A DNA stretch of 64,000 bases, taken from assembly GCA_021405315.1 (NCBI GenBank), contig QWIH01000008.1:1-64000 (forward strand), written 5' to 3'. This document shows, piece by piece, positions 15,148 through 29,237 of this stretch. The notes beneath the pieces are model-generated. The model made no database searches, was not told where the DNA came from, and worked only from the letters and a program-made list of their open reading frames with translations. The translations under genes and the position numbers were made by a program. Source of the DNA: Leptolyngbya sp. PLA1 (lineage in GTDB: Bacteria > Planctomycetota > Phycisphaerae > Phycisphaerales > UBA1924). Position 1 is the stretch's first letter. Every line of letters starts with the position of its first letter.

Positions 15148-15669
15148 CGGGGGTGTGGTCGGGCTATCCAGCTTTCGGGCCGCGGAGGGTCGGGTTTCGG
15201 GCGAAGGGCGCAGATGTTCGCGGACGAGGTCGGGCTATGAGACCATACCCTTGCTCCGAAGCAACCGGCGGAGCGGGGCCGCGTACAGCCAAGGCATCGG
15301 AGCGGCGCCGGCCAACCGAAACCCGAACGTTTACAGAACGGTCAGATGGGGAATCTGGCAGGTATCTGTGAGCCCCCCGAGTTGTAAGTTGGCGGGAAGG
15401 TCGGTACTCTGGTATGGAGTTTCCCGGGGACTCGGCGCGAGCCGAGGGTCTGGGGAGCACACGCCGCGCCAGTCGCCACCGGCGACGCGTGGGAATATGG
15501 GGTGTGAGACCACGCAAGTCGTGAGTCTCACGCCACCAGCCGCGGTCATGCGGGACAGCACGTGGCGGACGCGGAAGACAGCCGCGGCCCGCTGGCGTGA
15601 GGCTCGCAGGACTGAGGAGCATGGATGTTGGCCGTCCTGACGGGCGGCGATACAGATCGAGGAGCAGTC
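15148..15669 (+). other. Long non-coding leader region before the giant surface-protein gene
   Basis: 522 bp without a convincing gene. A promoter-like pair TTGTAA (15382-15387), 17 bp, TACTCT (15405-15410) would give a leader of about 250 nt. Two strong hairpins lie in that leader: CTCGGC-GCGA-GCCGAG (GNRA-type tetraloop, about 15430-15445), and a longer stem at 15502-15533 (GTGTGAGAC then CACG, loop CAAGT, CGTG, GTCTCACGC). The sequence GGTCGGGCTAT is repeated directly near 15157 and 15223. No known riboswitch class was recognised. Confidence 0.4.
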
Positions 15670-18600
15670 ATGGGTCAATCTCGCGTGAGCAGCAAGTCCG
15701 TCGTCCGCACTCACGATCATGGCAAGAAGCCTGGGCTGTTCAGCCGCCTGGCGGCGTGGGCGGGGCTGGCGGAAGCGCCGTCGATGGATCAACTCGAGAA
15801 GCGAGAGCTGCTGTTCACGCTGACGGTGACGGCGGACTCTGTGGACCCGAACACGGGCATCGGGCAGGTGACCGGCTATTTCGGTTACGTGATCCCGCAC
15901 CTGATTCGGTCGGGCGAGGCGCAGCAGAACCAGACTGGCCAGACGATCACGGAATCGTTCGACCAGCAGCCCCCCGGGGCGCGGGGTTCGGGTCAGTTCT
16001 ATGCAGAGTCCCAGATTCAGGCGCTGCATTCGATCGCGCCGCCGCAGGACTTCGCCGTGGAGCCGCTGGCGACCGGCGGTCAGACCAACGACCGGTGGAT
16101 GAAGATCTCGATGGACCGTGCCGGGGAGTTCTTCGCGTTCCGCATCTGGGACGACGGGGACAACCCGACGGTTCCCATCCAGGCGCGCACGGTGCGGTTC
16201 ACGGTGAGGCCGAACAACGTGCCCGGCGGGCCGGTGACGGACGTGACGGGGATTCTGCCGGACCTGCACGTGGTGGAGCTGCTCTCGAACAACAACGTCG
16301 TCGCGACGTTCACGGGCAACCAGATCCGCGCGGCCATTCAGAACGGCAACCCCGACCAGGGCGTGGGCGACTTCACCTTCAACGCGCCGGCGAACAACCC
16401 GGGGTTTGACACCATCCGGGTCCGGGCACTCTCGAACGTCTCCGGCCGGCCCGATTTCCAGCTCGACAACCTGGCGTTCGACATCCCGCCGGCGATCTTC
16501 GCGCCGACCATCCCTGTTGACTTCGGCGCGCGCGTGACCCTGGCCGGCCCGGTGGGGGCGAGCGTCACGATCACCGACCTCTACGGCCGCGACATGGTGC
16601 AGACGCTGCGGCTGGGGCCCCTGACCGGCGGGCAGGGACTGCTGGTGGACCTGAACGACGACGGCATCCCGGACTTCAACGACGGCATCGGTGCCATCAG
16701 GCTCACGGGCACGGATTCCAGGACGGCGCTCTCCATGTGGGGCGGGACGATCAGCGCCTCCACCACGCAGCCTCAGGACGCGGACACGTGGGACGGCCAG
16801 TTCGCCTTCACGCTCTCCGACGGCCTCGAGGGGCTGTACGACGACTTCGAGGGCAAGGGCTTCGGCTACGTGCTGCGGGCTCAGAACAACCAGGTGGAGG
16901 TCGCGGGGCTCCCGGGCGGTCCGGGCTCGGTGATCATCGGCTCGCCGTTCGTCCGGCCCCTCAACAACTACAACCCGAACGGTAACGCCGCGGGCGCCGC
17001 GAACCCTGTCATCACGGGGTTCACCAACCCGAACCAGGGCATCTTCGTCGACGGCGACATCAACAGCATCATGATCCACGGCGTGGTGCACGGCTCGTCG
17101 CACATTCAGGGGGCGGCGCAGCGAGTGAACATCGGCTACCTCGTGGGCTCGCTCAGCGTCGACGGGGACCTGGGCTATCTCGCGGTGGGCTCCGACGCGG
17201 GTATGTGGGCGCCCGACCCCGACTTCCAGCCCCCGCCCAACATCCGCCTGGATGCGGTGAACAAGACCAACGGGTCGCTCACGGTCGGGCGAACGGTCGG
17301 CGAGATCCTCGTCGGCGGCCGCATGCTGATGGACGTGACCGTGGTGGGCGATCTGAACTCTCCGACGACGCGGCCCGCACGCGACACCTTCAACTACTGG
17401 GAGAAGGAGCGCAACTTCGGGACCGGCACCACGGGCATCACCGCGCTGCAGATGACGCGGAACCAGATGAACGCGACGAACTTCGTCGCGCGCAACGCCA
17501 CGGACCTGTTCCGCAGCTCCGACCAGGGTGTGCTCTTCGGCCTCAGCAACTACTTCCGCAACGACACCATCATGGGCGCCGAGTTCATCGGCTCGATCTC
17601 CGGCGGCGTCCACCTGCGCGGCGAGCTGTCGGGCGTGGACCTCTTCAACGGCGAGGATCGCGCGGACGTGTTCGCGTTCGCCGTTGACGGCACGTCGGAG
17701 GTCGTCGTCGAGGGCGCCAACTCCCTCGCGAACATCTCTCCCTACTTCCGCATCATGGACCAGGACGGGCGGACCCTCGCGGCGCCCGAGCTGCCCTTCA
17801 CCGCCGGCCGGTTCAACGCGACCCAGCTCCGCTTCAAGCCCACAGGGCCCGGCGTGTACTACCTCGTCCTCTCCGATCCCAACGGGAACGACACGGGCAC
17901 CGGCAACTCGCAGTACTCCGTGGTGGTCACCGGCATGGCCCCCGTGACTCTCGGCGCGATCCGTTCCGCCGGCGGCTTCGGCTTCACGGACGTGACCTCC
18001 GGCGAGGGCAACTCGATCACCGTCCTCTCCGGGAGCGTCGGCTCGGTCCGCGTGGGCACCGGGCTGGTGGACGGCGGCGGCGAGGACGCCTCTCCGCTCG
18101 AGACCTATAACACGGTGCAGAACGACGACGACTCGCTCTCATTCCAGGGCGGAACGTTCTCCGTCTCCGGTTCGCTCTACAACATCACCGCGGGCGGAGA
18201 CTTCGGCGCGCCCGACTCGCAGCAGGCGCCCCCCGACGTGGTCTTCCAGATCGGCGGCGATCTGGGCACCCTGTTCGTCGGCCTCAGCCCCGTCGTGGGC
18301 GGCGGGCCCGGCGAGGGCGATCTCAACTTCCTGAATCTCGCGGTCGGCGGACGCATCGCGCTCATCGACGTCCGCGGCGGCATCGGCATGGACCAGGACG
18401 CGGTGGACCCCAGGGGCAGCCGCGGCGCCGGCATCGTCAACATCCGTTCCGGCGTCTCCGGTGGCAACGGCGACATCGGCATGATCCGGACCGGCTTCCA
18501 CGTCTACGGAGACTCCACCAGCATCACGACTTCGCCCGGCTCAACGATCGGCGCCATTCTGACGAGCCAGGAGGCGTACTTCGACACCAACCCCCGCTCG

Positions 18601-21600
18601 GGCATCTACCTGGGCCTCGATGGTCTGTCGATCAACTCAGGCTTCGGCTCGGACGTGAAGTTCGTCGATCTGATCCAGCTCGATCTCTCCAACAGCGTCA
18701 ACGTCACCCTTCCCATCATCGGCGATCGCCCCTTGCAGATCGTGGATGACAGCGGCGTGGCGTACACCATCGACGTCGAGGGAGCGCCCCCGGACGTGCT
18801 CATCGGCCAGGTGACCTTCATGCCGATCGACGGGTCCCAGGGTGTGGCCGTCGGCCGCATCGCGGTCGATCTCTCCGGCGGGCGCATCCTGCGCGTCACC
18901 CCCGTCGGTGGCGGCGGTGGCGGTGGCGGCGGCGGCACGACCGGCGTGGTCGGCATCGGCCACATCTTCGTGACCAACTCCGACGCCGCGTCGGCGATCG
19001 AGTTCACCGGCAACGTCGAGATCGACGTGCTGCGCATCGACGCGCCGGGCGGGCTGGATCACATCTCGAACCTCACCCCGGGCGGCGACATCGTGACCGC
19101 GGATGTGGGAGCACTGAACAGGATCGAGGTCACCGGCGACCTCGGCCGCACCCAGTTCCCGGCCTGGGGACCCGCGAACTACGCGACGTTCCTCGGCGTG
19201 AACGCCGGCGACGGCGGCGAGTTCGGCGGCGTGCTCGGCTTCAACGCGGGCAACGGGCTCTTCGACGACGATTTCAACGGCGACACCTTCCGTCCGGTCG
19301 GCGATGACAACTTCGACGCGGGCAACGCGTACCTGGACGACATCGGCGGGCCCATGGACGGCTGGCTGAACGGCCTGGTCGTGCGCGCGGGCGGGCTCAT
19401 CGAGGCGAGCATCGACGGCGCGGTCGGAGATCTGATCCTCAACGACCCGCTCGGCGTGCTGCAGCTCCTGAACGTCAACGCGGACCTCATCGCGCCGCTC
19501 GGCAGGTTCGACGGCATCTTCGGCACCATCTTCGCACGCGACATCGGGCGGCTCGAAGTCGGCGCCGGCATCGTCAACCCCGCGCCCTGGAGCCCGCTCG
19601 CGGTCGCGGGCATCTTCGCGGAAGACGACATCCTCGAGGTGGTGAGCGCCGCCACGGGCACCCGATTCTCGGCGCCCATCGTCGCGGGCAACTTCACCCG
19701 AGTCGACCTCCCCGGCATCGAGCAGGACGGCGTCAACTCGTTCATCGCGACCAGCGCCGTCATCGACGGGCTCTTCCTCGCCTCGCAGAACCTGGATGGC
19801 TTCTGGACCTCCTTCAACTTCGGCGAGCAGAACACGCAGACGGGCGATATCAACACCGTTACGCTCACCAACACCAACTTCTTCCGCAGCGCGATGCGCG
19901 CCAACGACATCCGCACGGTGAACATCACCGGCGTGCTCACGGGGGACACCGGCTACTTCGACGCCTCCGAGGTCGCCGCCACCGGCAACATGGGCGCGTT
20001 CACGGCACGCGGGTTCCGCAACTCCACGCTGCTGGGCGACGGCACCGAGCTGCGCCGCAACATCATCGAGGGCGCCGGCGACATCGATCGCCTCACGGCC
20101 CTCGAGGACATGCAGGACCTGATCGTGGACTTCACGGGCCGCGTGAGGCAGTCTGTCAGCGCCCGCAACATCGAGCGGACCTCGATCGATGTCGACAACG
20201 AGCTCGCGGCGATCACGATCCTCAACGACCTCCGCGGGTCGGAGATCACGGTCGGTGCGCTGCCGACGGTCACCGTTGGCCGCAATATCGCGTCCTCGAC
20301 CATCACCGCCTCGGGAGCCCTTACCACGGTCACGGTCGCCGGCTCCATCTCCAACGGCCTGATTCAGGTCACGGGTCCTTCGGGCGCGATCGGCACGATC
20401 ACGGCGGTCGGCGGGATCAGCGGCGAGATCGCCGCGTCCGGACCCATCGGCACCGTCAGCGTCACCGGGGGCGACCTCACGGCGAACATCCGCACGACCA
20501 CGACGCGGGGCAGCGTGACCGCTCTCTCGGCCAGCCGCGACGTCGCGATCTCAAGCGATATCTCCGCCAACCTCGGCACCATCACCGCGGGCCGGCATAT
20601 CGGAAACTCCGCCACCAAGGCACCGATCCTCGTCAGGGGCGACCTCACCTCCGCCACCGCGGCGAACGGACAGTTGTACGGCGATCTCCGCGTGGGCGGC
20701 GCCATCCTCGGCACGATCACGCTGGGCGGGGCGGCCAACAAGCCCGGCAACAACCAGGTCGGGACCGGCTCCATCCTCGCGTTCAGGTCCATCGCGGGCG
20801 TCACGATCAACGGCGACTTCGACGGCGACATCGTGTCGTACGGCGGGGGCATCGCCTCCATCGCCATCAACAACGGCTCGCTCCTTCCCGGCAACACCAT
20901 CGCCGCGTACGACGGTTCGCTCGCGAGCGTGGTCATCACCAACGGCTCGCTCTTCGGCAACGTGCACGCCGACGTCGATGTGACCAGCCTCCGCGTGGTC
21001 GCCGGTGCGGATGGGGTCTTCGGCGACGTGGGCGTCAACCCAGCGTCCTCCTCGCTGGTTTCCTATGACGCACGGCGGAACCAGCTCCCGCTCGGCGTCG
21101 CGCAGACGACCGGCTTCCAGGGGCCCCGCATTTCCGCGGGGCGGAACGTCGTGTCCTTCGTGGTCACCAACGGCTCCATGTTCGAGACCACCGTGTGGGC
21201 CGGGCAGTCCATCCAGACGATGACCATCGGCGGGAGCGTCTCCAACGACGCGGTCACGTCGGGCGCGGGCACGATCATCGCCGCGGGCGACTCCATCGAC
21301 AACGTGTCCATCTCGGGTTCCCTCTCCAACGCCTACGTGATGGCGGGCGTGCAGTCCCTCGGTGCGGACAATCGGCCCGGCGGCAAGCTGGAGAACCTCG
21401 ACGCGATCAAGCCCGGTTCCATCACCAAGGTCTCGGTCAGCGGCCAGACCAGCGACACGCTGTTCCTCGCGGGTATCGATGCGGGCACGGACGGGCTCTA
21501 CAACTCGTCCGATGATCGCTCGGTGCTCGGGCAGTCGTCGATCACGACGCTCACCCTCGGCTCGGTCGGCGCCAACGTGATCGCCCGTGGCGACATCCTC

Positions 21601-24600
21601 TCCACGAGCGTGGCCAACGACGGCCGCCTAATCCGCAGCGGCGCAGGCCTCGCGAGCACCAACGCCGATCTCGACAACGGCGCGGGCACGCCCGGCACCT
21701 CCTTCACCGGCAGCCGCACCTTCAACTACGGCCCCGGCACCGTCACCATCAACGCCTCCGGGGCCGGCCAGTTCTTCTTCGATTCCGGCACCGGGCGCCT
21801 CACGATCCGCAACTCAACCTCCGGCACGAATGTCACGGTCGCCTCCAGCACCGGATCGCTGGCGAACTTTGACGTGGTGACCAACGACGACGCCTCGCTG
21901 GGCAGCCTGGTCTTCCAGGCGGCGCTCACGGGCGACTCGGACGTGGCCATCGACGGCAACGTCGGCACACTCACCTTCGCCGCGTTCTCCGGCACCGGCA
22001 CCGTGGCGGTCGGCGGCAACATCACGGGCGCGACCTTCGCCTCGCTCGCCGGCGGGTTCTTCGCCGCTCAGGCCGTCCAGACCTTCCGCGTGAATGGCGA
22101 CTTCGGGGCGAGCAACTCGCTTGTCCTCGGAGAGGCGCACATCCAGTTCCTCTCCGGCGGCACGCTCAACATCACCGGCGCCGCCAAGGGCACGGTGAGC
22201 GTCGACCGGTCTCTGACGAGCCTTGTGGTGAACGGCGCCGCGGACCGGGCCGCGTTCCGCGTGGGCGGCTCGCTGGGCACGTTCTCCGCCGCGAGCGTCA
22301 GCCGCTCGCTGGTGGCGGTGGGTGACACGCTCACGACCCTCACCGTGGGCGGGGACGTCTTCGCCTCGTCGTTCATGGCTGGCCTCGACCTCGGCCGCGA
22401 CGTGGCGTTCGACAGCAACGGACTCGTGACCGAGGCCGAGGGCCTCAACGCCGACGTGGTTTCCACGGGCTCGGTCGGCACGGCGACCATCGCCGGGAAC
22501 TTCCGCGAGTCGAACCTCGTCGCCGGGTACTACCGCAACTTCGACGGGTTCTTCGGCAGCACGGACGACAACCTGGCCTCAGGCCGCTCCTCCATCGGCG
22601 CGGTCACCATCGGCGGCACCCAGGTCGGTTCGAGCCGCGCATCGGAGACCTACCGCATCGGCTCCACCGGCACGGTGGGACTGGTCAGCATCGGTGGTGC
22701 GATACTGAACGGCGCGGTCGGCAACTTCGCGGTCGAGGCCCCGCTGCTCGCCCCGGCGGCGTTCCAGGTCTCCGACCTTCGTGTCACGTCGGACGCGGGC
22801 GTTTTCCAGGGCGAGATCAGGTTCAACCAGCCCGTGGACGCGAGCACCCTCAGCCGGGCGATCTCGATCTCCGAGGTCCGCGGGAACGGCAGCATCGAGA
22901 TCCGCCTCATCGAGGGGCCGGACTTCACGCTTTCGTACCGCTCCACGGACAACACCGCCGTCATCACCTTCGCCCGCAGCCTGACCAGCCAGAATCTCCC
23001 CGTGGTGCCCGGCAGGCCCGGCCCCGGCGTCTACCGCTTCGACCTCGCGAGCGACTCGCTCCGCGCGAAGCTCTACAACCAGGCGCTGGACGGCAACGCC
23101 GACGGCGGCGCGATCACCGGCGACGACTACTCGCAGGACACCGTCGTCGGGGATGCCGGCGACAAGATCGTCCCGGGACGCGGCACCAGCGGCACCGTCA
23201 CCGTTGACTTCTACGCGCCCGCCAACCTCGACTTCATGCTGGACGACAACGCGGCGTCCGACGGCCTGCCCGACATCAACAGGTCCTTCACGGTCCGCGG
23301 GTCCATCGGCGATCACCCCGACGCGAACGTCAACTTCTTCTCCTTCGCCAGCGACGTCGACGTGTACGCCGTCACCCTTCAGGCCGGGCAGATCCTCCAG
23401 CTCGGCGCCCTTCAGGGCCCCGGCTCGCGCGCCGGCCTGACACTCGTGGCGCCGAACGGCCAGGCGGTCCCCCGCTTCGCCAACGCCGCCACCGCGCTCG
23501 CCCTGCCCACGGACCGCGGCGCCGCCCGCGACTTCACGTTCCCCGAGTCCTTCCTCATCAAGACCACGGGCACCTACCACGTGGTGATCGGCAGCACCGC
23601 CAGCGTCGCGAACCTCTCCAACCTCACGGTCCCGAACATCGCGACGCCCCCGGGCGGCGTCGGCGCCTACTCCTTCACCGTCAGCGTCTTTGATGACGGC
23701 GATTCCGGGTTCACCTCCACCACCGATTCCGGCAACGGCGCCCCGGTGGTCAACGCCCCGGCGCCCGCGGCATTCGCCGGCACCGACCAGCTCTTCGGCA
23801 CGCCGGACGACCTGGCGGAGATCGTCGTTGGTGACTACACCTTCACCTACAGCCGCGGGCTCGACAACCTTCCCAACACCTCGGACGACCTCGTGACCGG
23901 CACCAACGCCGCCGGGATCACCTCCACGCGCGACGGGAGCGGACGCCTGGTGACCACGATCGAGTCGTCCATCGGCCCCTCCGGGCATCTCGGTGTGCCC
24001 TTCGAGATCGCCGCGGACGTGGATGTGTACCACCTCAACAACCGCCAGCCGATCGCGCCCAACACTCCCATGAAGCTGACCGTCAAGCTCAGCGACAAGG
24101 GTTCGAATCTCGGCTCCGCGACCGCCCCGGCCCGCGTCCGCAACTCGACGCGGACCGTGGTGGACAACCGCGGATTCGTGCAGGTCGGCCTCTTCGACAC
24201 GTCCTCGTCGAGCACGCTCGACGATGCGCTCCTGGTGTTCAGCCCCACCGACTTCCGCGCCTTCGGCGGAAACAAGCAGGAAGTCCTCTCGTCCGACGGC
24301 ACCACGACCTACGGCTACGACGCCAACGGCGACTTCTACATCGAGTTCCTCACGCCCGACCGCATGGGCGTCCCGGGCGCCTCGGGCACCTTTGCCGTCT
24401 ACATCCAGGGCGCGACCAACAGCGATTACGCCCTGGAGGTCATCACGAATCCCTCCACCGGCACACCCGTCGAGACCTCCCGCCAGAACTTCTACATCGA
24501 GACCAACGGCGGGTCGGTGGACTGGCTCCAGATCGCCGGCATCTCCACGCAGCTCGCCGCCTTCGACCCCAGGGCCCTCGGCTTCGCCGGACAGACCTCG

Positions 24601-25221
24601 GGCGGCTCGCCCGTGCGCGAATACCTGATCAGCGCGGTCGTGGCCCAGCTCAACAGCATCTACCAGGGCGCGGGCTACGACGTCCGGTTCTCCGCCGACC
24701 CCACGGCCTTCGGCGCGGAGCAGTTCTCCACCATCTATCTGTCCTCCACGAACGACCCGCTGGTGCCGATCTTCGACCCCTTCAACCTCTTCAACTTCGA
24801 CTTCCTCAACACCACGCAGTTCTTCACCACCCAGCCCTACGGCTTCAGCGAGGCGAGCGACCCCTTCAACTCCAACAAGGAGGACGAGGGTGTGGTGTTC
24901 GTCCCATCCTTCGCTCTGCAGGGGTACACCCCCAGCCAGTCCGACGTCGACCGCTTCTCCCGCGGGCTCTCCGCCGCGATCGGCCGCCGTGCGGGCGAGC
25001 TCATGGGTCTGCGGCTCACCGGTCAGTTCGGTGCCGGTGGTCCCTTCGACCTCATGGCCTCGAACTCACCCGGCTCGACCCCCGCGGGCGGGCAGACCTA
25101 TAGCCTGCCCAACATCGGGCGCGACCTCTCGGATGCGTTCGATGAGACGCAGAGCACCGACTTCTTCCTCGGCCGCATGAACTCGGTCGCCCTGCTCCGG
25201 AAGTTCGTCAGTCTCCGCTGA
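15670..25221 (+). CDS. Giant secreted beta-repeat protein with planctomycete LExRxLL motif and degenerate metzincin-like C-terminus
   Basis: 3183 residues from the ATG at 15670, which has a GAGGAG ribosome site; an upstream ATG at 15625 is possible but lacks one. Residues 42-48 read LEKRELL, the motif near the N-terminus of many large planctomycete surface proteins. PPC-like beta domains lie at ~658-757 and ~2541-2681, with a related third segment (DVDVYHLNN) near 2780. Residues ~1480-2245 are short Gly/Thr/Val beta repeats of the type TVTVGRNIASSTI, suggesting a right-handed beta-helix. A Gly-run linker lies at ~1080-1090. The C-terminal ~200 residues resemble planctomycete metzincin domains but lack the HExxHxxGxxH residues: RRAGELMGLRL at 3106-3116, followed by a Met-turn-like FDLMAS at 3126-3131. 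I noticed no cysteine and no sortase or dockerin signal. Probable role: cell-surface or matrix structural protein. Confidence 0.88.
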   Translation: MGQSRVSSKSVVRTHDHGKKPGLFSRLAAWAGLAEAPSMDQLEKRELLFTLTVTADSVDPNTGIGQVTGYFGYVIPHLIRSGEAQQNQTGQTITESFDQQPPGARGSGQFYAESQIQALHSIAPPQDFAVEPLATGGQTNDRWMKISMDRAGEFFAFRIWDDGDNPTVPIQARTVRFTVRPNNVPGGPVTDVTGILPDLHVVELLSNNNVVATFTGNQIRAAIQNGNPDQGVGDFTFNAPANNPGFDTIRVRALSNVSGRPDFQLDNLAFDIPPAIFAPTIPVDFGARVTLAGPVGASVTITDLYGRDMVQTLRLGPLTGGQGLLVDLNDDGIPDFNDGIGAIRLTGTDSRTALSMWGGTISASTTQPQDADTWDGQFAFTLSDGLEGLYDDFEGKGFGYVLRAQNNQVEVAGLPGGPGSVIIGSPFVRPLNNYNPNGNAAGAANPVITGFTNPNQGIFVDGDINSIMIHGVVHGSSHIQGAAQRVNIGYLVGSLSVDGDLGYLAVGSDAGMWAPDPDFQPPPNIRLDAVNKTNGSLTVGRTVGEILVGGRMLMDVTVVGDLNSPTTRPARDTFNYWEKERNFGTGTTGITALQMTRNQMNATNFVARNATDLFRSSDQGVLFGLSNYFRNDTIMGAEFIGSISGGVHLRGELSGVDLFNGEDRADVFAFAVDGTSEVVVEGANSLANISPYFRIMDQDGRTLAAPELPFTAGRFNATQLRFKPTGPGVYYLVLSDPNGNDTGTGNSQYSVVVTGMAPVTLGAIRSAGGFGFTDVTSGEGNSITVLSGSVGSVRVGTGLVDGGGEDASPLETYNTVQNDDDSLSFQGGTFSVSGSLYNITAGGDFGAPDSQQAPPDVVFQIGGDLGTLFVGLSPVVGGGPGEGDLNFLNLAVGGRIALIDVRGGIGMDQDAVDPRGSRGAGIVNIRSGVSGGNGDIGMIRTGFHVYGDSTSITTSPGSTIGAILTSQEAYFDTNPRSGIYLGLDGLSINSGFGSDVKFVDLIQLDLSNSVNVTLPIIGDRPLQIVDDSGVAYTIDVEGAPPDVLIGQVTFMPIDGSQGVAVGRIAVDLSGGRILRVTPVGGGGGGGGGGTTGVVGIGHIFVTNSDAASAIEFTGNVEIDVLRIDAPGGLDHISNLTPGGDIVTADVGALNRIEVTGDLGRTQFPAWGPANYATFLGVNAGDGGEFGGVLGFNAGNGLFDDDFNGDTFRPVGDDNFDAGNAYLDDIGGPMDGWLNGLVVRAGGLIEASIDGAVGDLILNDPLGVLQLLNVNADLIAPLGRFDGIFGTIFARDIGRLEVGAGIVNPAPWSPLAVAGIFAEDDILEVVSAATGTRFSAPIVAGNFTRVDLPGIEQDGVNSFIATSAVIDGLFLASQNLDGFWTSFNFGEQNTQTGDINTVTLTNTNFFRSAMRANDIRTVNITGVLTGDTGYFDASEVAATGNMGAFTARGFRNSTLLGDGTELRRNIIEGAGDIDRLTALEDMQDLIVDFTGRVRQSVSARNIERTSIDVDNELAAITILNDLRGSEITVGALPTVTVGRNIASSTITASGALTTVTVAGSISNGLIQVTGPSGAIGTITAVGGISGEIAASGPIGTVSVTGGDLTANIRTTTTRGSVTALSASRDVAISSDISANLGTITAGRHIGNSATKAPILVRGDLTSATAANGQLYGDLRVGGAILGTITLGGAANKPGNNQVGTGSILAFRSIAGVTINGDFDGDIVSYGGGIASIAINNGSLLPGNTIAAYDGSLASVVITNGSLFGNVHADVDVTSLRVVAGADGVFGDVGVNPASSSLVSYDARRNQLPLGVAQTTGFQGPRISAGRNVVSFVVTNGSMFETTVWAGQSIQTMTIGGSVSNDAVTSGAGTIIAAGDSIDNVSISGSLSNAYVMAGVQSLGADNRPGGKLENLDAIKPGSITKVSVSGQTSDTLFLAGIDAGTDGLYNSSDDRSVLGQSSITTLTLGSVGANVIARGDILSTSVANDGRLIRSGAGLASTNADLDNGAGTPGTSFTGSRTFNYGPGTVTINASGAGQFFFDSGTGRLTIRNSTSGTNVTVASSTGSLANFDVVTNDDASLGSLVFQAALTGDSDVAIDGNVGTLTFAAFSGTGTVAVGGNITGATFASLAGGFFAAQAVQTFRVNGDFGASNSLVLGEAHIQFLSGGTLNITGAAKGTVSVDRSLTSLVVNGAADRAAFRVGGSLGTFSAASVSRSLVAVGDTLTTLTVGGDVFASSFMAGLDLGRDVAFDSNGLVTEAEGLNADVVSTGSVGTATIAGNFRESNLVAGYYRNFDGFFGSTDDNLASGRSSIGAVTIGGTQVGSSRASETYRIGSTGTVGLVSIGGAILNGAVGNFAVEAPLLAPAAFQVSDLRVTSDAGVFQGEIRFNQPVDASTLSRAISISEVRGNGSIEIRLIEGPDFTLSYRSTDNTAVITFARSLTSQNLPVVPGRPGPGVYRFDLASDSLRAKLYNQALDGNADGGAITGDDYSQDTVVGDAGDKIVPGRGTSGTVTVDFYAPANLDFMLDDNAASDGLPDINRSFTVRGSIGDHPDANVNFFSFASDVDVYAVTLQAGQILQLGALQGPGSRAGLTLVAPNGQAVPRFANAATALALPTDRGAARDFTFPESFLIKTTGTYHVVIGSTASVANLSNLTVPNIATPPGGVGAYSFTVSVFDDGDSGFTSTTDSGNGAPVVNAPAPAAFAGTDQLFGTPDDLAEIVVGDYTFTYSRGLDNLPNTSDDLVTGTNAAGITSTRDGSGRLVTTIESSIGPSGHLGVPFEIAADVDVYHLNNRQPIAPNTPMKLTVKLSDKGSNLGSATAPARVRNSTRTVVDNRGFVQVGLFDTSSSSTLDDALLVFSPTDFRAFGGNKQEVLSSDGTTTYGYDANGDFYIEFLTPDRMGVPGASGTFAVYIQGATNSDYALEVITNPSTGTPVETSRQNFYIETNGGSVDWLQIAGISTQLAAFDPRALGFAGQTSGGSPVREYLISAVVAQLNSIYQGAGYDVRFSADPTAFGAEQFSTIYLSSTNDPLVPIFDPFNLFNFDFLNTTQFFTTQPYGFSEASDPFNSNKEDEGVVFVPSFALQGYTPSQSDVDRFSRGLSAAIGRRAGELMGLRLTGQFGAGGPFDLMASNSPGSTPAGGQTYSLPNIGRDLSDAFDETQSTDFFLGRMNSVALLRKFVSLR

Positions 25222-25349: not shown

Positions 25350-26483
25350 TCAGCCCTGGCCCGGTCGCTGCGCGCGGTCCAGCAGCGTGGCGAGGCCACT
25401 GCCCACCATGTCCGCGTGCGCCACCAGCTTCGCCAGCGAGTCGCCCACGGTGCGGGCGCGGGTGAGCGACTCGTCCATCGTGGCCAGGCGGGCGGCCGTG
25501 TCGGCCACGTCCCGGACGCGGGCTTCGGCGTTCCGGAGGCGATCTTCCAGCGTGACGCGCTGCTCGAGCGCCGCGGAGATCGCACCGAGGAGAGCACGTT
25601 CGGCCTCCGCTGCGGCGGCGAGCGTCGCGGCGTCTCGCCCCTCCCGCTCCTCGCGGGCCTGGGCGGCCCGCCGGTCCAGGTCGAGCATGCCCGCCTCGAT
25701 GCCGGTGACGAGCGTCTGGCCGCGTCGTTCGGCCTCGGTGACGGCAGCGCCGAGCGTCGTGCTCGCGCGGGTGACCTCGGTGTCCGCCGATGCGAGGAGC
25801 TGCGTGACGCGATCGTTGAGTTCCGTCACGCGTGCTTCGGCGCCACGGGCGGCTCCGTCGAGCTCGGAGCGAGCCGCCTCCACCTGCTGGGCCAGGGCGG
25901 CGACGCGGACCACGATGCCGTCCGCAAGGCCTTCCAACGCCCGGGCCGCCCCATCAAGCTGCGCGAGCGTTTCCTCCGCTCGCCGGAGCGTGCCCGCGGC
26001 CCGCGATTCCAGGGCCTCCATCTCGCTCGCGCGGGCCACGAGCACCCGCTCAATCGCCGCGCGGGCCAGAGTGTCCATCGTGGCGGGGTCCGGCGGCTCG
26101 GCCCTGGGCCCGGGCTGCTTGAGCAGCGACTCGATCGCCGCGACCCTCTGATCGATGGTCGGAACGACCCGTGCGGCTCGTTCGACGCGCTCGCCGAGCT
26201 CGCGCGAGGCCTCGCGGAGCTGCCCCCCCAAGGCCTTGACCTCCGTGCTGGCAAGGTCGAGGGCCCGCTGCTGGGTCGCGGCGTCGCGGATGAGCGACTT
26301 GAGCGACCCCGCGAACGTCTCCAGTGCTGCCTGGTCGACGATGCGAGGCGAGAGGAACATGCGGTCCAGCATGCGCTCGATGTCGTCTCCCGCGGCTGTG
26401 TCCGGAGTCCTCGGCACCGTGGGATCGGGGGACGACCGGGTTGCTGGGCTCTGCGTGGGGTGAGCGGGAGGGGTGGGGGGCAT
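25350..26483 (-). CDS. Coiled-coil protein of unknown function
   Basis: 377 residues starting at the ATG at 26483. The first ~30 residues are Pro/Ser/Thr-rich and disordered (TPPAHPTQSPATRSSP). The rest is almost entirely Ala/Glu/Arg/Leu heptad-like helix (for example LAQLDGAARALEGLADGIVVRVAALAQQ), so a long parallel coiled coil is expected. There is no signal peptide or membrane segment, so it is probably cytoplasmic. Possible relatives are tape-like or methyl-accepting-like helical proteins, but no signalling hairpin motif is seen. It is divergent from rluB across ~73 bp and ends ~60 bp from the terminator of the giant gene. Confidence 0.75.
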   Translation of the reverse strand: MPPTPPAHPTQSPATRSSPDPTVPRTPDTAAGDDIERMLDRMFLSPRIVDQAALETFAGSLKSLIRDAATQQRALDLASTEVKALGGQLREASRELGERVERAARVVPTIDQRVAAIESLLKQPGPRAEPPDPATMDTLARAAIERVLVARASEMEALESRAAGTLRRAEETLAQLDGAARALEGLADGIVVRVAALAQQVEAARSELDGAARGAEARVTELNDRVTQLLASADTEVTRASTTLGAAVTEAERRGQTLVTGIEAGMLDLDRRAAQAREEREGRDAATLAAAAEAERALLGAISAALEQRVTLEDRLRNAEARVRDVADTAARLATMDESLTRARTVGDSLAKLVAHADMVGSGLATLLDRAQRPGQG

Positions 26484-26556
26484 GGGCGTTCCAGTGGGGA
26501 GAGTGCATCGTCGCCTCGCCGCGGCGCACGGGCAACTCAGCCCCTAGGGTTGTCGG

Positions 26557-27633
26557 ATGTCCGACCCAGAACTCCATACAACTTCCGATCCGGCGGGACG
26601 CATCCGCCTCCAGCGGTTCCTCGCCGATGCGGGCGTCGCCGCCCGCAGGACGTGCGAGGCCATGATCGAGGCCGGACGCGTCACAGTGAACGGGGAGGTT
26701 CACACCAGGCTTCCTGTCTTCGTGAACCCGGAGACCGACCGTGTCGCGGTGGACGGCAAGGGCATCCGCGGGGCCTCCCGGCACCTTTACGTCATGCTGA
26801 ACAAGCCGACCCGGACCATCGTGGCGGCGGCGGATGACCCGAACTTCTCCCGGCGGACGGTCATGGATCTGGTGGATCACCCGGCGGCGGCGAGGCTCTT
26901 CCCCGTCGGTCGGATGGACTTCGACTGCACCGGACTGGTGATTCTGACGAACGACGGCACGCTCGCCAACCGCCTCACTCACCCTCGATACGGCGTGACG
27001 AAGACCTACCGCGTGCTCGTTCGGGGTGACCTTGACGATGCGGCGCTCGCCGCCATTCGGTCCAAGCTCCGGGGGGGGCTGGCGGCATTGCGGGAGAGCG
27101 GTCCGGACCGTGGTGGGGCGGACATCTCGATCGTGAAGCGGGAGGAGGGGCGGACGCTGCTCGAGGTCGTCTCTGCCGAGGGCCCCAGCCGCGGACTCAG
27201 GGACGTGCTGAAGTACCTTGGAATGCCCGTCAAGCGGATCGAGCGCACGGCGATCGGGGAGCTGAAGCTGCGGGCTCTGGGACTCGGCCAATGGCGCGAG
27301 CTCACACGCGACGAGGTTCGGCTTTTGAAAGGGCAGGGAGAGTCTCGAACCCGAACTCGTCAAAAGCCGAAGAACAATCCGCGGCGGGTTCGCCCGAGGG
27401 GGCCCGGTGAACAGCAGGGTGGCTCAGACCGAGATCAGGGCAAGCGCCGGGGCGGACCGGCCTCGGGCGGACGCGCTGGGAGACGTCCAAGACCGGGTCC
27501 TGTGGCCGGACCGGGGTCAGCGGGCCGCGGCGGGACGTCTGGCCGTCGGGAACCGTCGAGACCACCTACGGCGGGGCCCGATCGAAGGCGAAGTGAAAGG
27601 AATGGCAGGCCACGCCGCTCAGAGCGACCCTGA
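26557..27633 (+). CDS. rluB: 23S rRNA pseudouridine synthase, RluB/RsuA family
   Basis: Isomerises a specific uridine in rRNA. An N-terminal S4 domain (RLQRFLADAGVAARRTCEAMIEAGRVTVNG, residues ~10-40) is followed by the RsuA/RluB catalytic domain: YVMLNKPTRTIV, the catalytic-Asp motif GRMDFDCTGLVILTNDG (usual form GRLDxxTxGLLLLTNDG) and KTYRVLVRG, ending with LKYLGMPVKRIERTAIGELKL. The last ~100 residues are a basic, Gly/Pro/Arg-rich disordered tail, as in many RluB proteins. The ATG at 26557 has TAGGGT six bases upstream and no ribosome site (possible leaderless mRNA). The stop TGA shares a base with the next ATG (TGATG), so translation is coupled to the BrkB protein. Confidence 0.92.
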   Translation: MSDPELHTTSDPAGRIRLQRFLADAGVAARRTCEAMIEAGRVTVNGEVHTRLPVFVNPETDRVAVDGKGIRGASRHLYVMLNKPTRTIVAAADDPNFSRRTVMDLVDHPAAARLFPVGRMDFDCTGLVILTNDGTLANRLTHPRYGVTKTYRVLVRGDLDDAALAAIRSKLRGGLAALRESGPDRGGADISIVKREEGRTLLEVVSAEGPSRGLRDVLKYLGMPVKRIERTAIGELKLRALGLGQWRELTRDEVRLLKGQGESRTRTRQKPKNNPRRVRPRGPGEQQGGSDRDQGKRRGGPASGGRAGRRPRPGPVAGPGSAGRGGTSGRREPSRPPTAGPDRRRSERNGRPRRSERP

Positions 27634-29237
27634 TGCCTTCTCAGACTCCAAGACGAACGAAGGTTGACGCCATCCAGCGGGTGCTGGGGGGGCGCCCGAT
27701 CGCATGGGACGGGGACTCGGAGCAGACGGTTCCGACTGGCCTGGTGCGGTCGATCTTTCACGTGCTTCACCTGCTGCTGGTCGGGATCCGTCGCACGCAG
27801 CTCACGCGCATGGCCGCGGCGCTTGCGTACCGCACGATGTTCGGCATCATCCCCGTCATCGTGGTCGTCGCGGTGGCGCTCGCGGCGTTCACGAGCCAGG
27901 AGCGTCAGCAGGAGGTCATCAAGGGGATGCTGACCTATGCCGGGCTCAACCAGATCAGGGTCGAAGATCGCCGGGCGAGGGAAGAGCAGCCTGCCCCGGC
28001 GCCCGAGTCGCCAGCCCCGGGGGCCACAGGTCCCGGCGCCGGAGAGCCAGAGCCCGGGCAACGCGGTGTCGTGTCGGAGCCTCCGGCGGCGAGCCTTGAC
28101 GAGTGGATCAACGAGCGCGCGGTGTCGATAGCTCAATCGATCAAGAAGCTCCCCTTCAACCTGATCGGGTTCGTCGCGATCCTGACGCTGCTGTACGCCG
28201 CGATGTCGATGCTGGTGGAGATCGAGCACGCCTTCAACGAGATCTACCTGGCGCCGGAGGGCCGGAGCTGGGCGAGGCGGATCGCGCAGTATTGGACGCT
28301 CCTGACGCTCGGGCCGATCCTGCTCATCGCGAGCTTCACGATCTCGCACTATCTGACGGATTCTGCGGACACCATCGCGAAGCTGGGTGGCGACACGTAC
28401 GCCGTGCACCTCAAGGAGGCGCTCAGGTTCGTGATCGCCGCGGTCGTGAGCTCCGGCCTTCTGCTCCTCATCTACGTGATCGTGCCCAACACGCGGGTGC
28501 AACCCCTTCCCGCGGCCCTCGGGGCGCTGGTGGCGGGTGTGCTCTGGGAGTCCAGCAAGGCGGGATTCACGGCGTATGTCGGGTTTGCGACCCGTGAAGT
28601 CGAGGGAGGGACGAACCTCTCGAACCTCTACGGCACGGTGGCGATCCTCCCGCTCTTCCTCGTGTGGGTGTATCTCTCGTGGCTCATCATCCTGTTCGGC
28701 CTTCAACTTGCGTACTCGATGCAGACGTACTGGCAGGCCTCGGCCAAGGGACTCACGCTCTCGGTGCTCGCGGCGCTCGGACTCATCGAGGACCCGAACC
28801 CGGCCGGTCGGCCCCGCCTGATCGATCCCGCCTCGATCCTCGCGGCGCTCGCCGCGGTGGCTGAGCGCTTCCGCGAGGGCAAGCCCAGCGACCACAACCA
28901 CATCGCGGAGGCCACCGGCCTCCACGAGAAGGCCGTGGCGCTCATGCTGTCGAGGCTGGCGGATGACGGACTGCTCCTGCCTGTCGCCGGCTCCTCGGGG
29001 AGGCTGGAGGCGTACGCACTGGCTCGTCCGCCCGAGACGATCGACGCGCTGCGGGTGATGAAGCTTGCGGACGACCTCGGCGGCGCGGTGCCGCCAGCGC
29101 CGACGCCGGCCCGGATCGCGAGGCAACTCGCGGAGGCCAAGCGGACGGCCCTGCGTGGCAAGACCCTCGCGGACTTCTTGCCTCCGGTGCCCGCAGCGGA
29201 CGGGGCCTCGCCCTCGACGGCGCCCCTGGGGGCGTAG
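27633..29237 (+). CDS. YihY/BrkB family inner-membrane protein with C-terminal winged helix
   Basis: 534 residues. The N-terminal ~330 residues form the YihY/BrkB membrane domain (formerly misnamed RNase BN): LTRMAAALAYRTMFGIIPVIVVV, PFNLIGFVAILTLLYAAMSMLVEIEHAFNEIY, YWTLLTLGPILL and the closing NLYGTVAILPLFLVWVYLSWLIILFG. A Pro/Glu/Ala-rich insert (about 110-150) interrupts the first loop. Residues ~400-480 form a winged-helix-like segment (HIAEATGLHEKAVALMLSRLADDGLLLPV), known in some BrkB proteins. The function of the family is unsettled; transport or export roles have been proposed. It starts at ATG 27633, overlapping the rluB stop by one base. Confidence 0.9.
   Translation: MPSQTPRRTKVDAIQRVLGGRPIAWDGDSEQTVPTGLVRSIFHVLHLLLVGIRRTQLTRMAAALAYRTMFGIIPVIVVVAVALAAFTSQERQQEVIKGMLTYAGLNQIRVEDRRAREEQPAPAPESPAPGATGPGAGEPEPGQRGVVSEPPAASLDEWINERAVSIAQSIKKLPFNLIGFVAILTLLYAAMSMLVEIEHAFNEIYLAPEGRSWARRIAQYWTLLTLGPILLIASFTISHYLTDSADTIAKLGGDTYAVHLKEALRFVIAAVVSSGLLLLIYVIVPNTRVQPLPAALGALVAGVLWESSKAGFTAYVGFATREVEGGTNLSNLYGTVAILPLFLVWVYLSWLIILFGLQLAYSMQTYWQASAKGLTLSVLAALGLIEDPNPAGRPRLIDPASILAALAAVAERFREGKPSDHNHIAEATGLHEKAVALMLSRLADDGLLLPVAGSSGRLEAYALARPPETIDALRVMKLADDLGGAVPPAPTPARIARQLAEAKRTALRGKTLADFLPPVPAADGASPSTAPLGA

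Follow-up and report, generated by a model that had tools for sequence, protein, structure and literature searches.

What does the C-terminal end of a giant planctomycete protein do when it resembles a metzincin-type zinc protease stripped of its zinc ligands, and is it a former protease at all? The gene lies on the forward strand of the window, by which we mean the whole 64,000-nucleotide stretch of DNA that was analysed. Read from its longest possible start, the open reading frame spans 15625-25221 and encodes 3198 amino acids; read from the ATG at 15670, from which the residue numbers of all motifs are counted, it encodes 3183. The features that matter for the argument are as follows.

15670..25221, + strand: open reading frame of the giant protein, 3183 aa from the ATG at 15670
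15793..15810, + strand: LEKREL, an LExRxL-type N-terminal motif at residue 42
24487..25218, + strand: predicted pseudo-metzincin domain, 244 aa, reaching the C terminus (profiles, predicted fold)
24733..24756, + strand: IYLSSTND, a strand of the central sheet (model residues 81-86) and the next turn (sequence, model)
24751..24837, + strand: variable Phe-rich loop, 29 aa (model, family comparison)
24838-24861, + strand: YGFSEASD (sequence)
24859..24888, + strand: DPFNSNKEDE, that is D125..N128....D133-E134, common to intact relatives (alignment)
24892-24912, + strand: VVFVPSF (sequence)
24937..25002, + strand: helix at model residues 151-172, equivalent to the zinc helix (model)
24985..25017, + strand: RRAGELMGLRL, residues 3106-3116, at the place of HExxHxxGxxH (sequence, alignment)
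25045..25062, + strand: FDLMAS, residues 3126-3131, at the place of the Met-turn (sequence, alignment)
25183..25200, + strand: C-terminal helix following a conserved FFLGxxN, in dead and intact forms (alignment, model)

The LExRxLL motif is a mark of extracellular proteins. We take LEKREL to be the LExRxL motif of planctomycete extracellular giants, and relatives carry versions of it (LEPRKL, LEPRLL, LEARQL and LEQRTL), with LEPRKL as the equivalent in the orthologue L184 and LEPRLL or LEPRIL in the giants of family f5. From this start and its composition, the protein is presumably extracellular; cysteine is absent from all 3183 residues. On the 3' side of the gene, at 25350-29237, lie genes for a coiled-coil protein, an RluB-like pseudouridine synthase and a YihY-like protein, the names being judged from sequence. 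As candidates for a conserved partner gene, the RluB-like gene (24 of 51 named loci) and the coiled-coil gene (10 of 51) look like plain synteny; the count covered 60 loci, the 51 named ones and nine more, and neither gene occurs at any of the nine.

The first-pass annotation had described a dead metzincin-like domain at 24640-25221. That domain is real, but it begins further upstream, at 24487, and the short strings quoted for it (IYLSSTND, YGFSEASD, VVFVPSF, RRAGELMGLRL and FDLMAS) all sit at the residues given, counted from the ATG at 15670. We modelled the domain with AlphaFold2, from 39 mixed rows (pLDDT 85.9) and from dead rows only (pLDDT 88.2, pTM 0.88), the second model being built to rule out that intact rows impose the fold; its alignment held 82 of the 83 sequences of f1, the family of the window's genome, with one row omitted for an undetermined residue. 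The models contain the central sheet, helix A and the zinc-type helix in the metzincin order. For the dead-only model, the best Foldseek match was the adamalysin-type structure 1iag (probability 0.98) at an E-value of 0.01, the others being weaker and all modest. VIA-align, with which best Z scores of 7-8 are typical where no clear match exists, returned a Z of 11.3 with 6x5x (150 aligned residues, rmsd 3.7 Å) and aligned 150 residues of 1htd at 3.9 Å; each of the 50 matches listed is a metzincin or a metzincin-like zinc peptidase. The mixed-row model gave a Z of 11.1 (152 aligned, 4.0 Å), and ADAM22 (5y2z) was among its matches at a Z of 9.3. The comparison with metzincin structures that had been proposed for this domain therefore returns a metzincin fold even when no intact row is in the alignment.

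Profile comparisons point the same way. In hhalign, the dead-only f1 profile A6 matched A4, a profile of ten intact metzincins, with a probability of 97.7 and an E-value of 1.5e-12, in a register that puts RRAGELMGLRL on HELGHTLGLNH. The first-pass reading of this segment as a zinc helix without its three His and its Glu thus rests on an alignment and not on a chance resemblance. In genome scans, the dead-only f1 profile picked up intact proteins of the sister family f4, which belongs to the same order, at about E 1e-28. The intact-only profiles A2 and A4 matched snake-venom and matrix metalloproteinases in the PDB at E-values of 0.001-0.01.

Likeness to intact homologues extends beyond the helix, as the first-pass annotation had expected of a true metzincin, and spans the domain and most of the giant protein. 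In a full-length blastp comparison, residues 331-3177 of the window's protein align, at 25% identity and E 1e-130, with 301-2874 of L184, an intact giant of f4, and residues 330-3183 are co-linear with L185, a dead giant of f4 genus g68 (E 4e-156). Two giants of f5 compared in the same way yielded a single weak stretch in one case and no match in the other, so the C-terminal domain is the only part that they recognisably have in common with the window's protein. The intact giants of f4 genus g58 (L035-L039, with L184 at full length) have the LExRxLL start, the terminal metzincin domain and the D..N....DEA..F core as the window's protein does; they differ in retaining HE[AV][AGS]HTLGLRH (all five genomes) and the Met of the Met-turn and in lacking the long Phe-rich loop. 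Co-linearity with L184 and L185 indicates that the f4 and f1 proteins are conserved apart from a change of the head, and since the co-linear giants of the sister family keep HEVSHTLGLRH or variants, this is a real change from protease to pseudoprotease.

We identified HExxH in none of the 83 f1 domains and, by a sequence scan, nowhere in the whole giant protein of the window. The longer HExxHxxGxxH motif is intact in f5, f6 and other families of this class: all 45 rows sampled outside f1, f3 and f4 genus g68 in the one-per-genome set retain it, 19 loci having been taken from the class-wide matches by their giant open reading frame or high score. Other dead versions read KELAKTFGLRE in f3 (L034) and MELGRLMGLRL in g68 (L040), and their distinct replacements suggest parallel losses. 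In a tree of 71 of the 130 one-per-genome rows, from which the columns of the motif and the Met-turn had been left out, the dead and intact states need two changes, one in f1 together with f3 and one in g68, and the intact outgroups make both of them losses. The zinc motif would thus have been lost at least two times, with moderate support at the key forks (SH-aLRT 93-94, quick search); f3, with its long branch and different residues, may represent a third independent loss. Taken together, the hhalign match, the co-linear intact relative and the tree, along with the models, demonstrate by sequence and prediction that the domain descends from a zinc protease, the zinc motif of which survives where relatives of the giant protein end, and that the predicted fold was kept while the catalytic Glu and each of the zinc ligands, three in number, were lost across the family.

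Only part of the order's genomes carry the domain. It occurs in 40 of 101 near-relative genomes (32 in f1, one in f3, six in f4 and one in f5), one protein each, and the N-terminal 777 residues of the giant protein are found in 35 of the 101, nearly the same genomes, so that where the domain is missing the whole protein mostly is as well. Across the order, 119 of 400 genomes match the domain profile; 85 of these belong to f1, and 83 remain once G007 and G027, which match only via other, shorter proteins, are set aside. A search of 392 genomes of the phylum with the dead-only profile at E 1e-10 gave eight matches (five f1, two f4, one f5). Among named records, the domain is present at 51 loci of Phycisphaerales or unclassified planctomycete assemblies, which largely overlap the 83 f1 genomes, and HExxH is found at none of the 51. 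Many well-assembled f1 genomes are without the domain; because the giant protein is missing from a large part of f1, the family does not depend on it. Among the proteins of the window's genome, no intact paralogue from the same family was found that might serve as a partner. That genome does encode three proteins with intact motifs of the HExxHxxGxxH type (HEVGHTLGLRH in L234, HELGHQLGANH in L235 and HEHGHGLGLPH in L236), of which L234 fits the domain profile only from the motif onward and the other two only around the motif.

What has become of the old zinc site? Where competent metzincin peptidases carry HExxHxxGxx(H/D), the window's domain reads RRAGELMGLRL, and within f1 its positions have fared differently. 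Arg has replaced the first His in 80 of 83 sequences and the catalytic Glu in 70, while the second His has become Glu in 78 and Gln in the remaining five; the HxxG glycine is kept in all 83. The third His position is variable (Leu in 26, Ile in 23, Thr in 10). The Met of the Met-turn, which in intact relatives reads G[IM]MDTS or LM[SA]AG, is found in 32 of 82 f1 members versus 24 of 27 intact rows counted from the tree listing. FDLMAS, which the first-pass annotation had regarded as kept, is indeed present in this genome but is not a trait of the family, and the poor conservation of its Met weakens it as evidence. Judged from the alignment, parts of the old machinery that would serve catalysis only are drifting, and two of the old ligand positions have gained a new fixed pair. 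For every one of the 43 pairs that are more than 72% identical, dN/dS falls within 0.03-0.41 (Nei-Gojobori, some dS values being near 1), with 0.029 for the window's sequence versus G005. These low ratios and the new fixed residues argue for selection on a folded domain and not for decay, in line with the earlier suggestion that a protease fold has been put to another use.

With a probability of roughly 0.7, we favour the reading that the giant extracellular protein ends in a stable, non-catalytic pseudo-metzincin head, in which a conserved Arg/Glu pair has replaced the zinc centre and whose most likely role is ligand binding. By this account, the zinc protease head of the giant protein would have lost all three His and the catalytic Glu while its fold stayed, and a new signature, Arg-(Arg)-x-Gly-Glu, would have become established and conserved at the former site under purifying selection. 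The Arg and the Glu that occupy the former positions of the first and second His lie on the same face of the helix, four residues and hence about one turn from each other; they may form an ion pair, as the helix spacing implies, and could stabilise the helix in place of zinc. The head would then bind a protein or another ligand through its surface, the former cleft or the Phe-rich loop of variable length, in a manner like that of ADAM22. The last of these sites is a guess. The loop, which lies between model strands 81-86 and 119-121, comprises 29 residues in the window's protein and 11-41 across the 83 f1 members, with 16% Phe versus 8% for the whole domain; the equivalent stretch of intact relatives is mostly 7-15 residues by a simple pattern that does not fit many of the rows. 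Because the loop is as short as 11 residues in 30 of the 83 members and model confidence in it is low, it is not a general binding site.

The alternative that survives best, and that we take seriously while rating it below an even chance, assigns the module a purely structural or export role: as a C-terminal cap or assembly signal of a long repeat-rich protein, it would be needed at the terminus for folding or secretion, and catalysis would be dispensable. Consistent with such a role, the domain sits exactly at the C terminus of dead forms and likewise of intact f4, f5, f10 and f25 giants, its position is more conserved than its chemistry, and the non-catalytic core (D125, N128, G119 and G229) is common to most dead and intact forms. 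However, intact relatives also occur as stand-alone proteins of 400-550 residues, so the fold is not tied to a giant stalk, and a mere cap would have no need of a lineage-specific Phe-rich loop. The dead head may serve in binding or in structural capping. Two further observations concern the architecture of related proteins. Families f8, f17, f19 and f22 encode stand-alone related metzincins of about 350-550 residues with as many as five of them in one genome, frequently in adjacent pairs (for example at G618:C137, G669:C203, G663:C220 and G584:C79). Order-mates in f6 contain open frames of 19,806 aa (L125, G085:C1:500108-501883) and 17,845 aa (L127, G094:C89:172315-174162), both ending in an intact form of this metzincin domain.

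The remaining alternatives fare far worse. A neutral relic, a protease that died and is drifting away, would account for the relaxed third-His and Met-turn positions and for the several f1 genomes without the protein, but it is very improbable, being contradicted by the low dN/dS of 43 of 43 pairs, by the Arg and Glu newly fixed at old ligand sites and by retention of the domain without stop codons in 83 genomes of many genera. We give no more credence to a hydrolase that still works with a metal bound elsewhere or by some other mechanism: D125 and N128 are invariant in all 83 f1 domains, and D133 and R167/E171 are strongly conserved, but D125, N128 and D133 are likewise conserved in intact relatives with a normal zinc site and so are not its replacement, and neither the domain nor the whole protein contains HExxH. 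An unrelated fold that resembles metzincins by chance, which might be suspected since the C-terminal domain has no match in Pfam or NCBIfam (the sole match on the giant protein being GBD_IRG7_N, sub-threshold, at residues 671-751 of the 3198-aa frame) and the mixed profile A1 none among PDB sequences up to E 10, has next to no chance and is already contradicted by the profile matches and by structural matches that are all of metzincin type among those listed.

Compared with adamalysin/reprolysin and matrixin metzincins (1iag, 1htd and 6x5x; Reprolysin_5 and Peptidase_M10), the pseudo-metzincin head has the same predicted fold and order of elements, the zinc-helix glycine and the position of the Met-turn, whereas its residues leave it without the three His, the Glu and hence the zinc site. 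Pseudo-metallopeptidases are best documented in animals. Those of animals are the focus of a review (PMC11266112), which describes how ADAM22 binds LGI1 via surface residues of its dead metalloprotease domain and not via the pseudo-active site. Like the pseudo-protease ADAMs treated there (ADAM11, ADAM22, ADAM23 and ADAM2), the window's family retains a dead metzincin domain on a surface protein. The ADAMs, in contrast, are animal membrane proteins with disintegrin domains and motifs such as QSLAHNIG in place of a conserved R-R-x-G-E, and their disintegrin and cysteine-rich domains have no counterpart in the cysteine-free protein of the window; the likeness implies no direct descent. More tentatively, and at less than even odds, we propose that Phycisphaerales may at least twice have made a receptor or adhesin out of the protease head that a giant surface protein carried. 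In the window's family, a conserved Arg-Glu ion pair would have taken the place of the zinc, and the result would be an independent bacterial counterpart of ADAM22-type pseudo-protease receptors.

None of the papers listed by our literature searches deals with a bacterial pseudo-metzincin of giant proteins. Pseudo-enzymes as such are already known; what is new is a pseudo-metzincin that is dead throughout its family while co-linear relatives are intact, the loss having occurred repeatedly. One member can be followed further. Phycisphaera sp. Bin4 (L175; RHLH01000001.1, 3,258,164 bases) encodes a 3302-aa giant that ends in the domain with RRVGELVGLRL. In PMC7029141, Phycisphaera sp. Bin4 is a single contig of 3.26 Mb, and the >3 um fraction shows an enrichment of the SM1A02 group; the proteomes of that study, with an exoproteome among them, are deposited as PXD015067. 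We infer that RHLH01000001.1 and this Bin4 are the same assembly. The L175 genome thus seemingly comes from a co-culture with a public exoproteome, so that expression of the giant protein would be checkable without new experiments.

The same giant protein with intact and dead heads in neighbouring families, at least two apparent losses and a defined replacement signature would offer a clean natural comparison of what metal loss without fold loss means for a zinc protease, and of what job the protease head of a surface protein may take up when it no longer cuts.
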